Assembly (NCBI GenBank): GCA_022606425.2 | Contig: JAHDVF020000068.1 | Span: 1,674,001-1,738,000 of the forward strand | Direction: 5' to 3' | Length of the DNA: 64,000 nt | Origin: Lepidostoma basale | Lineage: Eukaryota; Arthropoda; Insecta; Trichoptera; Lepidostomatidae | Shown here: positions 791 through 56,499 of the stretch, in pieces | Numbering within the stretch: the stretch's first letter is position 1 | Layout of the letters: the number at the start of each line of letters is the position of its first letter | The notes under the pieces: generated by a model | The model's database searches: none | The model's input: the letters and a program-made list of their open reading frames with translations, nothing else | Told to the model about the DNA's origin: nothing | Program-made: the position numbers and the translations under genes

Positions 791-837
791 TCATACTCTA
801 CTTTGTTTTTCACCGCTATGCAGTAATTTTAATTGCC

Positions 838-869
838 AACTAGTTTCGTTTGTACACAAGCTTCATCAG
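838..869 (-). ncRNA. Hammerhead-like ribozyme motif (HHR-1, antisense copy)
   Basis: On the minus strand: CTGATGA, extra A, helix II GCTTG/CAAAC (one mismatch), GAAA, then the palindromic ACTAGT and a GTT cleavage triplet. Helix I is GCC/GGC. Confidence 0.65.
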
Positions 870-914
870 GGCTTCGTAATAAAGGTTATTACGGTTAATG
901 GTTATTACGAAGCC

Positions 915-946
915 CTGAGGAAGCTTGGGTACAAGCGAAACTAGTC
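915..946 (+). ncRNA. Hammerhead-like ribozyme motif (HHR-1, sense copy)
   Basis: CTGAGGA, extra A, helix II GCTTG/CAAGC fully paired, GAAA, palindromic ACTAGT, GTC. Helix I is GCC/GGC. It keeps every conserved core position apart from the extra base before helix II. Confidence 0.72.
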
Positions 947-1564
947 GGCAATTAAAATAACCGCATAGTGGTGAAAAACAAAGTACAGAATTTTCATTTT
1001 ATTTTATTTTAGATACAAATAATATTTTTTTACTTAAATAATAATAATAATATCCATTACGGTATTTTTATATATTTTAAGTAGACATTACTTCATATTG
1101 AATATACCTTTATTTCTTTTTAAATCAAATTATGAATGGAATGAATATTTACGTCCATAAATGTCTTCAATTAATTCCATGACATTTAAAGCATCGCACT
1201 TGGATATTTTGCAAACTTAGAATAAGGGGCTCTCGAAAAAAAATAGTTTTTCGACTTATAAGAGTCAAACAAGGTTGGAGTGAAAGAGAGTTTGATATGA
1301 AATATTTTCTGTATATCAATTATTTACTCAGCGATTTCTCTGTACTTAAAATAGAATTCAAACAGAAAATACTATGCACTTTGTAATTGGCTAGTATGAA
1401 AATAATATTTTGCATTTGATATAAACATTCTGATATCAGTACATTACTATTACCTACGTCACAATAACATTTATTGGGACATAAATAAGATTATGTTTGT
1501 TTGTATTTATTTTTGGTATACTATAAATAATTTAACAAAAAATACTCCCGATACGTAAGACGCT

Positions 1565-1944
1565 ATTATATATATATATATATATATATATATATATATA
1601 TATATATATATATATATATATATATATATATATATATATATATATATATATATATATATATATAAATATATATATATATATATATATATATATATATATA
1701 TTATATATATATATATATATATATATATATATATATATATATATATATATATATATATATATATATATATATATATATATATATATATATATATATATAT
1801 ATATATATATATATATATATATATATATATATATATATATATATATATATATATATATATATATATATATATATATATATATATATATATATATATATAT
1901 ATATATATATATATATATATATATATATATATATATATATATAT
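1565..1944. repeat. (TA)n microsatellite
   Basis: About 380 bp of nearly uninterrupted TA dinucleotide with two single-base phase breaks, inside the glutamine synthetase intron. The long Tyr-Ile reading frame across it is an artefact. Confidence 0.97.
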
Positions 1945-2571
1945 TGTATGATATGTTATACAGGAATATCATAATAAAATAATGAAACTTGTCAATATGT
2001 ATAGCTGTTTATATATACGAGTATTATATGAAATACAATATCTATCGTACGTACATCTCCTAAACATGTTATTTGTGATATATTCGATATCAAAGCAAGC
2101 AATTTCAAACAAATTTCCCTTATACGTTTGTTAAATCATTGAAATAATTACTACGAATTGTAGCTTCGATAATCTTACAAGGTTCACACATTGCATTTGA
2201 TTTCAAAGTACGGTTAATGTTATTAAATAATTTTTTGTTGCGATGAAAGCATTTCTTAAACCAATCAAGCTTTATTATAGTTTCAAGTTTTATTATTTTA
2301 TCGTGTATAATTTGTACATGTGTATTCTGAATGCTTCGTAGTTTTTTTTATGAGAGAGACATCTTTTGATTTACTTTAAATCAAAGTTTTTTTTTTCTTG
2401 TAAATATGAGTGATATTAAAATAAACATTCGATATTTAATATATATGCGTATATATTTTTCTTTTATATACGCCATACTTTATGTTGTTATGATGGTTAA
2501 TTTATAATATATTATTATTTTTATACACTTTGTATATACAACACTTATATTAAAAAAAATTAAATTATTCA

Positions 2572-2592
2572 GACATCTTTCGGACAAACAAT
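2572..2592 (-). repeat. Truncated HHR-3 fragment
   Basis: It keeps GTCCGAAA followed by GATGTC on the minus strand, next to the family's TATACTTTGTATATACAACA flank at 2525-2545. The CTGANGA half is replaced by a poly-T run. Confidence 0.5.
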
Positions 2593-3079
2593 TTTTTTTT
2601 TAATATTATAAAATTGTTTACATGATCTGACAGATGTTACAAGATTTATTTTGGAACGTTTATGCTTTTGTTATAACAAATATTATGATTCAATTTAAAA
2701 TTTAAAATAATAATTTAAAGTTCTTATTGGGGTTCAGGTAATTACTTACAACAAAGGAAATAAATCAAAGTTTGGACTTGATTTTAAATTATTATATTTT
2801 TGTTTGTTTTTTTTTATAAATATGTGTAATGAAAGTTTTAAATGTTGCCACGAGGTGATTGACCTATTTAGTATATTTTTTTATAAAATCTTGTCCACGA
2901 ATATACGATAAATTGAATTAAATTATCTATTTTGGCAGAACTGTATAATTATATCTGTTGTGTTAGTCAAGTGCATAAATAGTACCATGACAGCAGACAC
3001 ACTGATTGTGACTGTCTAGACTGCTTACGTATTTTTCATCCGTTTTGTTAGTATTTATACAATAAATGATATTTGTTAC

Positions 3080-3266
3080 CTCCTGGTTTGGATGGTATGA
3101 AGTCCAACGTTCTATCTTTACATCTGACCCGTTCTCCTGTCCCATCTATCCAGATGTAGGTCACCTGAATCAGTCCGCTCGGTATCGGAAGATTCAAATA
3201 CTTCGACACGATTGTTTTATCGAGCGCGGCATTCGGCGAATCCGCCAAAAAATGTTTACCAGACAT
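3080..3266 (-). CDS. Glutamine synthetase, first coding exon with start codon
   Basis: This exon encodes residues 1-62 of glutamine synthetase, beginning [18 protein letters not shown] and including YIWIDGTGE and RCKDRTLDF, hallmarks of the eukaryotic family's N-terminal domain. The ATG at 3266 is chosen over the in-frame ATG at 3287 because a pyrimidine-rich acceptor (TTTTTCAG, AG at 3275-3274) lies between them. The exon therefore starts at 3273 with a 7-base 5' UTR remnant, which implies a noncoding exon further upstream. The donor GT is at 3079-3078, phase 1. There is no mitochondrial presequence, so this resembles the cytosolic insect isoform (Gs2-like). The paralogue assignment is inference. 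Confidence 0.94.
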
Positions 3267-3299
3267 GGCGACACTGAAAAACGACACCGTTTAGTTTAA

Positions 3300-54309: not shown

Positions 54310-54535
54310 AGATGGTGGTAACCAATTTTCTAAAGGCTTCTTCGTCTCCAATCCAGTTCTTAATTCTGCGCAGTCAAAACATTTGCCCACGGCCAGGACC
54401 ACGCCGCCCTTAAATTTTTCCCATTAACATAAGTTGGTGGATCTCATATTTGTTTCCACGCAAAATGTGACCTAGATAGGAAATTTTACATACCTTAATG
54501 CGCGTATAAACTAAAACTTCTTCTATAAAAAAAGC
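54310..54535 (-). mobile_element. LINE-C remnant
   Basis: Minus strand: KVCKISYLGHILRGNKYEIH and KFKGGVV, then KNWIGDEEAFRKLV in broken frames. Confidence 0.65.
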
Positions 54536-54950
54536 AGAAATGGGATACGAAAGTTACAAGGAATATTAATTATTTCGGTAATCGAAGTGTTGTTATTATT
54601 ATTGTGTACATTATATCATATCAGCATAATTATGTGTATTTAATGGCCAATTAAAGTATTTTTATGCTCCTCCTTATCGTAGGGTCATACACTGATGACC
54701 TAAATATGACCACAAATTAGCTTCCATCGTAAATCATAAATAACTATGTAGCAATAAATCTGCTCATAAACAAAACAAAACGAATAACATCACTTGTTTT
54801 TTTTGTGCGTAAAGAATTTATAAATGCTGGAATATTTATTGTTTGAATAATTATAAAATCAGCTGATCGAATACTTAATTTATTTCTCTTTTTATTTTTT
54901 ATATACTTTGTGTATATACAACAAATATACTAGAAAAATAAAATTACATA

Positions 54951-54981
54951 GACATGTTTCAGGCAAACAGTCCTTCTTCAG
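54951..54981 (-). ncRNA. Hammerhead-like ribozyme motif (HHR-3)
   Basis: Minus strand: CTGAAGA, extra A, helix II GGAC against GCCT (weakened), GAAA, palindromic ACATGT, GTC. Flanks TACTTTGTGTATATACAACA and ATGATCTGACAGATGTTATA are those of HHR-3. Confidence 0.58.
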
Positions 54982-55330
54982 TAAAGATACATTTTTAAAA
55001 ATATTATAAAATTGTTTTCATGATCTGACAGATGTTATAAAGATTTGTTAATATTATGATTAAATTTAAAATTTAAATAAAATTTAAAATATAAAAGAAT
55101 ATTTAATTTATTGAATTTTAATTTATTCTCGGGTAAACATATCCTATAACTTATTGTTTTTTTCCTCTATTTATTTAAACAAAAGAAAGGTCTTTGAACC
55201 CTAGTTAACGATTGTTAACAGAATAGTAAAAATGATTGATTGAATCAAATAATTGCGTAGATTTTCACGGTTGGCAGCAATATGTTTTGTGTGATTTTGG
55301 GTAACAACGTGTGATTTCTCCTTCTCGACC

Positions 55331-55365
55331 GACGTTTCGGAGATCGTTGCAGACTCCATCATCAG
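55331..55365 (-). ncRNA. Hammerhead-like ribozyme motif (HHR-6)
   Basis: Minus strand: CTGATGA, extra T, helix II GGAG/CTCC with a longer loop, GAAA, ACGT palindrome, GTC. Helix I ACC/GGT. Confidence 0.68.
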
Positions 55366-55484
55366 GGTAATGTGATGGTGGTAATAAATGTGATATGAGT
55401 TGTACAGTGAAGTACCTTAGCAGAACAGTGAATTACCTTAGTAGACACAACTCATATCACATTTATTACCACCACCACATTACC

Positions 55485-55988
55485 AACAACAAGTCAGTAA
55501 AGCCTCTGCCGTGTCAGGATGCCTGAAGAATCTGGTCTGGAAAAACAAGCACATGCGTATCGACAGCAAGATCAGAATCTACAAAACATGCGTGCGACCC
55601 ATCATGATGTACGCTGTAGAGACGCGGGCTGACACTGTGCGAACCAAGGGACTACTAAGAACATCGGAGATGAAGGTTCTAAGATCAATTACTGGAAAAA
55701 CCCTCCGAGATCGTGTCCGCAACGCAGACATAAGAAAAACCTGCGAAATAGAGGATATCGTTCAGTGGAGTAGATCCAGACGAAGATACTGGAGGGACCA
55801 TGTAGCCCGAATGGATGGTGACAGACTCGCATATACAGCCGCCTATGAAATCCCTTCCGAACACCGCCCACCTGGAAGACCGCCTAAGAGATGGAGGGAC
55901 AGCTGGATCTCATCATCCGACGAGATATGATTTCTGTGTCACAGATCGTCAGATCTATCAAAAGAAGAAGAAGAAGAAGAAGAAGAAG
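55485..55988 (+). mobile_element. LINE-B with 11-bp target duplication
   Basis: A 504-bp insertion flanked by ACCACATTACC (55474-55484 and 55989-55999), tail (AAG)n. The open C-terminal frame reads SGCLKNLVWKNKHMRIDSKI, RIYKTCVRPIMMYAVETRAD, GKTLRDRVRNADIRKTCEIE, WRDHVARMDG and PPGRPPKRWRDSWI-to-stop. It is the best-preserved LINE-B end here and ends the frame cleanly at 55930. Confidence 0.92.
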
Positions 55989-55999
55989 ACCACATTACC

Positions 56000-56034
56000 C
56001 TGAAGATGGAGACTGCAACGATCTCCGAAACGTC
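56000..56034 (+). ncRNA. Hammerhead-like ribozyme motif (HHR-6)
   Basis: CTGAAGA, extra T, helix II GGAGA/TCTCC fully paired, GAAA, ACGT palindrome, GTC. Helix I ACC/GGT. It begins one base after the LINE-B target duplication. Confidence 0.72.
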
Positions 56035-56499
56035 GGTCGAGAAGGAGAAATTTCTTATATATTGATTGACTCTTTTATATGTTTTGATGACTACCTTAGA
56101 ACAGTTTCTTGTAATATAAATAATTAAAATATTAAGCATTCAAATAAGTAATATAACATTTGTTTAACTAGAAAGATTTTAACAGAAAGTTGCTTCAAAT
56201 AATAACGTATATAAAATATTAACATTCACTTCAGTAATATCTTTCCTCCATTTTCAGTAAATTCGAGGGGTGGGGAAAGAATATTGATAACTTTATTTTA
56301 CCAGTTTACGTTTTTTCACGCGCGTTCGAAAATAACATACTCGTATACGAGTATAAAGTATCACGTAGGATTTTGCGTTTTGGTTATTTAAATATTTTAA
56401 GAATATAATAATTAATTAAGTCATAATAATGAATGACATTAATTGTAATGGATATGTGTTGTTAAGGTAATTATTTTCGAAAATTAAGAAGGCATTTAA

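Follow-up and report, generated by a model that had tools for sequence, protein, structure and literature searches.

The 64,000-nt window analysed here, from the trichopteran Lepidostoma basale (contig JAHDVF020000068.1, positions 1,674,001 to 1,738,000), contains short repeats with a hammerhead ribozyme core and a greatly reduced stem III. We consider it likely that these sites represent minimal hammerheads of type I carried in the pseudo-long terminal repeats (pLTRs) of Penelope-like retroelements (PLEs), and that the palindromes in which many of them lie originated by priming on both strands of the target. A preliminary description of the window had listed 13 hammerhead-like sites, sorted them into at least eight families, and related them to PLEs and retrozymes. 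All 13 sites are present (the positions given for the minus strand are low-coordinate ends), and the interpretation as hammerhead-type motifs in PLEs is supported, whereas the retrozymes and the count of eight or more families are not. The palindromic insertion structure, the tails, and the altered catalytic core of two abundant families had escaped that description.

A strict descriptor (CTGANGA, 0 to 3 extra nucleotides permitted, a helix II no shorter than 4 bp with G first and C last, and GAAA) finds nine sites in the window, compared with a mean of 0.01 and a maximum of 1 in 100 first-order Markov simulations, which rules out a chance origin of the motifs; CTGANGA alone occurs 45 times against 17.4 expected. 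The four listed sites outside the strict form have a mismatch in helix II (869 and 48580) or an altered outermost pair (21636 and 54981). The one extra nucleotide that had been described as part of the motif is borne out, as exactly one follows A9 before helix II in nine of nine strict sites. An extra core nucleotide is reportedly also found in a viroid hammerhead. A scan of viral contigs for the motif gave at least 134 loci; on visual inspection, those that passed the descriptor had the look of phage hammerheads or chance matches, and none of them, among the matches listed, resembled the window families. One hammerhead-like site on a viral contig, L060:12754 (+), likewise has one extra nucleotide ahead of helix II, and its stem III is complete.

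By helix II and stem III, the 13 sites form only five families: F1 (GGAC, CATG; 11571, 18111, 39653, 39935, and 54981), F2 (GCTTG, CTAG; 869 and 915), F3 (GCTCC, CCGG; 48539 and 48580), F4 (GGAGA, ACGT; 21636, 55365, and 56000), and F5 (GTCAAC, CAGCTG; 6306). Stem III is thus reduced in each to a self-complementary stretch of four or six nucleotides. The type I core CUGANGA/GAAA/NUH is present in F1 to F5 and in F8, a family found elsewhere in the genome. Alignment tentatively suggests a common 3' block in F1 to F3; profiles built from flanks only gave no cross-matches. Copies beyond the original list were found at 39791, 47949, 48031, 59848, 61833, 61937, and 38452, along with two core-variant families, F6 (54045 and 53981; core CCGATGA) and F7 (35676 and 45863; core CTGTNGA). 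Helix I of F6 (TTCTC or TTCTT with GAGAA) was assigned by visual inspection of two decayed copies in the window, and the copy at 54045 lacks it.

The helices are conserved as pairings rather than as letters. Across 19 window copies, three pairs of helix I, four of helix II, and two of stem III are formed in 87.7% of cells, compared with 21 to 38% in slid controls, and 34 cells are changed on both sides compared with 11.2 in shuffles. A second alignment of 13 rows (A4), which holds the families other than F4 and F6 with loci L221 and L225 added, gave 94.8% pairing (slid controls, 22 to 46%) and 33 such cells against 10.7, although its rows were partly picked by our covariance model R1 and are biased toward structure. 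F4 is covered by the 19-copy count only, and F6 is in neither. The compensatory changes between families that had been anticipated are therefore borne out for helices I and II in both alignments; the two stem III pairs are nearly invariant and little informative, and helix I is weak or missing in part of F1. Folding of single motifs was indistinguishable from shuffles. With filters off, R1 regained all 19 copies from which it was built and added 54045 (+), 38452 (-), 35676 (+), 45863 (-), and 53981 (-) at E values of 1e-4 to 0.034, so that F6 and F7 join the original five families.

The motifs are highly repeated in the 768.8-Mb assembly, in which exact motifs were counted and control motifs gave 0 matches. 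The F1 32-mer has 2,784 copies, and with F4 (1,016), F6 (966), F7 (4,942), and F8 (1,804) the five exact motifs sum to 11,512, F7 being the commonest of these. Their arrangement is predominantly head-to-head. Among 66 distinct F1 loci (70 fetched by intact motif, 4 duplicates removed), 47 have a head-to-head partner within 1 kb, 14 are solo, 4 are tandem, and 1 is tail-to-tail. A hand count of neighbors within 1 kb at 500 listed places, 100 per family, gave 50 divergent, 1 convergent, and 0 same-strand cases, the divergent ones divided as 13 for F1, 13 for F4, 2 for F6, 18 for F7, and 4 for F8. In the window itself, divergent pairs within seven palindromes hold 13 of the 19 copies, and the F6 pair is another.

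The ends of the elements carry a distinctive signature. Outer ends of F1 lie near one model position, whereas inner ends vary between copies and between the two arms of a copy, and several centers contain unpaired spacers of tens to hundreds of nucleotides. Several centers are themselves palindromic. Clusters of ends near -81, -95, and -100 to -113 were considered as transcription starts but are not so read, as they partly reflect subfamily differences and palindromic centers. An outer end may be extended by a tail, a stretch running to an ATG (ATGGCGAATATAGAAG in F1, ATGAACTTCCATCAAG in F7; the F1 tail 20-mer has 2,861 genome copies). This tail is on one outer end in 28 of the 47 F1 pairs and on both in none, and each of the four F7 pairs whose two ends are visible has a single tail. 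F1 loci selected by the tail instead of the motif (50 of the first 58 listed places) had a pLTR arm in 43 cases, reaching the motif in 36 of these; 27 were head-to-head, and 3 more had a left arm but no scored tail arm. These stretches were 660 bases long, so distant partners escape, and the sample is not wholly unbiased, since C9:346758 and C9:347882, with tails 1.1 kb apart, were dropped along with six places already fetched with an intact motif. The flanks of 35 F1 elements have a common word of at least 10 bp in 40% of cases, compared with 2% of mismatched flanks, which suggests target site duplications of 10 to 13 bp. Arms of the same element are 88.1% alike and arms of different elements 83.6% (34 elements; 0 of 10,000 permutations).

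A genome search for the GIY-YIG endonuclease domain gave 62 matches, with 150 of 541 candidates scored. At locus L225, a 600-amino-acid frame with both RVT_1 (1e-13) and GIY-YIG (4.7e-5) lies between F7 motifs on opposite strands, and its arms (433-1051 and 3970-3310) match at 92.6%, which implies that the frame is 5'-truncated at the join. Reverse transcriptase (RT) and GIY-YIG in one frame were found for F7 only; together with the pLTR pairs and their one-sided tails, they support the Penelope-like context proposed for the motifs. F8 motifs, with the consensus core and in some cases decayed, lie downstream of GIY-YIG matches at L208, L218, L220, L221, and L222, and locus L210 is a 2-kb palindrome (97.5%). 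Among the candidates scored, none of F1, F2, F4, F5, and F6 was tied to a GIY-YIG match, and Pfam found nothing above cut-off, and no PLE frame, in 10 open reading frames (ORFs) of the window.

For the palindromes, we favor an origin in which both strands of the cut target would prime reverse transcription of PLE RNA from two nearby internal start sites, one of them producing the tail, and the two 5'-truncated cDNAs would then be joined at their inner ends as a head-to-head pair; the copied RNA would be mostly uncut at the hammerhead. Close precedents exist. The protein of PAc, the Poseidon PLE of Anolis carolinensis, cleaves and extends both target strands and starts internally (PMC11167929). 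Like the elements described here, PAc combines RT with GIY-YIG, carries a hammerhead at the pLTR/ORF start, has AT-rich targets, and has a tail between two internal RT starts. The likeness extends to F4, whose helix II begins with an ATG and whose predicted cut falls 29 nt from the A of this codon (26 nt after the ATG), as in PAc (PMC11167929). The elements described here differ from PAc in that most of the sampled F1 loci are short palindromic pairs of pLTRs and in that F6 and F7 have a changed core. The Penelope elements of Adineta vaga similarly have head-to-head inverted pLTRs with an optional tail on one, 5' truncation, target site duplications of 8 to 10 bp, and a pLTR reaching into the first codons (PMC3846280); the word "hammerhead" is absent from that paper, and pairs with no ORF between them are common here. 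Two further papers describe minimal hammerheads of PLEs and Terminons that, like these, are type I, lack helix III or have a minimal one, and lie in pLTRs (PMC6155905, PMC7229834). Minimal PLE hammerheads (PMC6155905, PMC7229834), head-to-head pLTRs with one tail (PMC3846280), and extension of both strands from internal starts (PMC11167929) have thus already been published. Among the papers listed by our searches, none dealt with palindromic pairs of hammerhead-bearing pLTRs or with PLE families whose core is changed, which is weak evidence of novelty because subscription literature was thinly covered.

Several observations weigh against this interpretation. Regarding the motifs, a count of the pairs that show a double change at all gives no excess over shuffles (213 of 500 for the 19-copy set, 197 of 500 for A4), helix II is the only helix that RNAalifold predicts from the window copies, and a search with the Rfam hammerhead models, the check that the preliminary description had proposed, gave no window match even at E values up to 10, an outcome that the description had named among its refuting results. 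Regarding the insertions, neither end of 19 of the 47 F1 pairs has a tail by the pattern used, one divergent pair of tails less than 1 kb apart among 100 listed tails is a possible two-tailed exception, and only 8 of 68 arms have their own partner as the nearest arm. No coding region was identified for F1, F2, F3, or F5. Finally, the F1 tails that were read stop approximately 20 nt beyond the ATG, whereas the main start in PAc lies 111 to 118 bp into the ORF, and the PAc start site showed no difference between strands (PMC11167929).

The same elements could also have acquired their palindromes by self-priming, with an antisense PLE transcript folding back at its 3' end and priming itself. Palindromes at the inverted junctions of bdelloid PLEs prompted this proposal (PMC3846280), and the palindromic centers seen here would fit it. 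We nevertheless regard self-priming as unlikely, because alone it leaves the combination of a single tail on each element with outer target duplications unexplained, and the unpaired spacers at several centers also speak against it. It is far less probable that we are dealing with a miniature inverted-repeat transposable element (MITE) or foldback DNA element whose terminal inverted repeats happen to contain the motif; the copies are indeed short, palindromic, very numerous, and apparently flanked by target duplications, but their varying inner ends leave no constant fixed center, and one-sided tails, solo pLTRs, and a frame with RT and endonuclease domains in such an arrangement also speak against it. 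Metazoan retrozymes, small non-autonomous elements that spread via circular RNA cut by type I hammerheads and that are reported from insects among others (PMC7229834), share the short length and ribozyme type of these copies but are a scarcely credible identity for them, as the canonical small tandem repeats are replaced by mainly head-to-head copies (only 4 of 66 F1 loci are tandem), stem III is minimal, and elements end at tail or non-tail positions and not at the cleavage site.

Two families depart from the consensus core: F6 mostly by U4 to C, and F7, with its helices kept, by A6 to U. Position 6 is U in the 4,942 exact F7 copies compared with 59 others (34 C, 16 A, and 9 G by hand count, with a search pattern that held one loop base fixed), and position 4 is C in 87 of 100 listed F6 copies, the 13 with U possibly being products of CpG decay. 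A literature search for A6U in hammerhead ribozymes found no paper. A natural A6C hammerhead cleaves at less than 0.1 per minute, which fits low activity for changes at position 6 (PMC3088659), and F7 is for this reason expected to be weak. As a genomic proxy for cleavage, the positions of cDNA ends were compared with the predicted cut, where they do not accumulate in either F1 sample. Of the 63 inner ends in the tail sample, 1 lies within 2 nt of the cut, approximately the even-spread expectation, and 57 of 63 arms start more than 10 nt upstream. The first sample, with 47 left arms, gives 0 and 42, respectively. Arms that start so far upstream imply that the copied RNAs were mostly intact there. 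Because the copied RNA appears mostly uncut and the most copied family found has a changed core, self-cleavage is probably not needed for insertion or amplification, to judge from sequence evidence. In vitro, PAc mutants with a dead hammerhead inserted equally well as the wild type (PMC11167929). In the families with a consensus core, cleavage may take place in dimers, with the aid of a protein, or at a different stage.

The elements of the window are listed below.

Hammerhead-bearing elements in the window (positions are those of the window; H-H, head-to-head)
Feature	Position	Strand	Motifs and remarks
F2 H-H palindrome	775-1008		Motifs 835-872 (-), 912-949 (+); 83% self-inverted; R1 36.0 and 41.5 bits
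F1 pLTR, decayed motif and tail	2453-2720	-	
F5 motif, CAGCTG stem III	6268-6309	-	Middle pair of helix I mismatched
F1 solo pLTR	11426-11667	+	Motif 11568-11604
F1 fragment	18064-18116	-	Motif 18078-18114; helix I of 9 bp
F4 element	21477-21752		Motif 21633-21673 (+); inverted-arm remnant 21477-21535
F7 motif	35676-35714	+	Core CTGTCGA; helix II GCCAG/CTGGC
F5 motif, decayed	38452-38493	-	
F1 complex	39562-40130		Motifs 39619-39656 (-), 39756-39794 (-), 39932-39968 (+); tail ~40031-40074; palindrome 39691-40031
F7 motif, older copy	45863-45901	-	Core CTGTAGA; helix II GTCAG/CTGAT
F1 H-H pair	47848-48114		Motifs 47916-47952 (-), 48028-48064 (+), both decayed; palindrome 47866-48114; 79% self-inverted
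F3 H-H pair	48447-48676		Motifs 48505-48542 (-), 48577-48614 (+); 90% self-inverted
F6 H-H pair	53926-54139		Motifs 53981-54020 (-), 54045-54084 (+, core CCGATGA); 91% self-inverted
F1 solo pLTR	54879-55049	-	Motif 54948-54984
F4 H-H pair	55249-56051		Motifs 55328-55368 (-), 55997-56037 (+)
F3 H-H pair, truncated	59804-59905		Motifs 59814-59851 (-), 59877-59914 (+, broken); palindrome 59823-59905
F4 H-H pair, decayed	61753-62057		Motifs 61796-61836 (-), 61934-61974 (+); palindrome 61753-62018; 68% self-inverted

For the RNA of the F3 pair at 48447-48676, the predicted fold is an almost perfect hairpin (-149.9 kcal/mol, z -25.8). Both motifs are paired there with their antisense arms, so that such copies should mask the ribozyme. 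The F4 pair at 55249-56051 is interrupted by a later insertion (55485-55988) flanked by an 11-bp duplication, two copies of ACCACATTACC. Between these two copies, inside the F4 element, sits a reading frame (55445-55930) related to another at 59813-60397; Pfam found nothing over cut-off in either, and both presumably resemble the end of an RTE-type long interspersed nuclear element. A separate 90% palindrome at 18117-18385, with below-cut-off similarity to Rfam MIR4208, adjoins the F1 fragment, and a 92-bp unit at 46120-46304 is duplicated in tandem at 100% with a decayed F7-like motif in each copy. The window also contains a tandem array of a 113-bp unit in about 8 copies (25853-26757), a (TA)n run of about 189 copies (1567-1944), and tRNA-like repeats resembling heads of short interspersed nuclear elements (551-619, 44608-44679, 18619-18703, and 57623-57707), two of which exceed the Rfam tRNA cut-off.

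The joining of arms head-to-head and the presence of a tail on one side only provide genomic support for reverse transcription from both target strands, starting inside the RNA. As to why PLEs carry hammerheads, a possible answer, which we advance tentatively and hold to be somewhat doubtful, is that the PLEs of this genome keep the hammerhead as a fold and not as a nuclease, given that F7 and F6 have reached approximately 5,000 and 1,000 exact copies, respectively, despite their changed cores. If this were true, the hammerhead would serve chiefly as a landmark, to the PLE protein or the internal RT start for instance, and cleavage would be optional. Families with consensus and with changed cores coexist in this one genome, all of them highly copied, and thousands of insertions record the ends of the template RNA, so the need for cleavage is directly testable.

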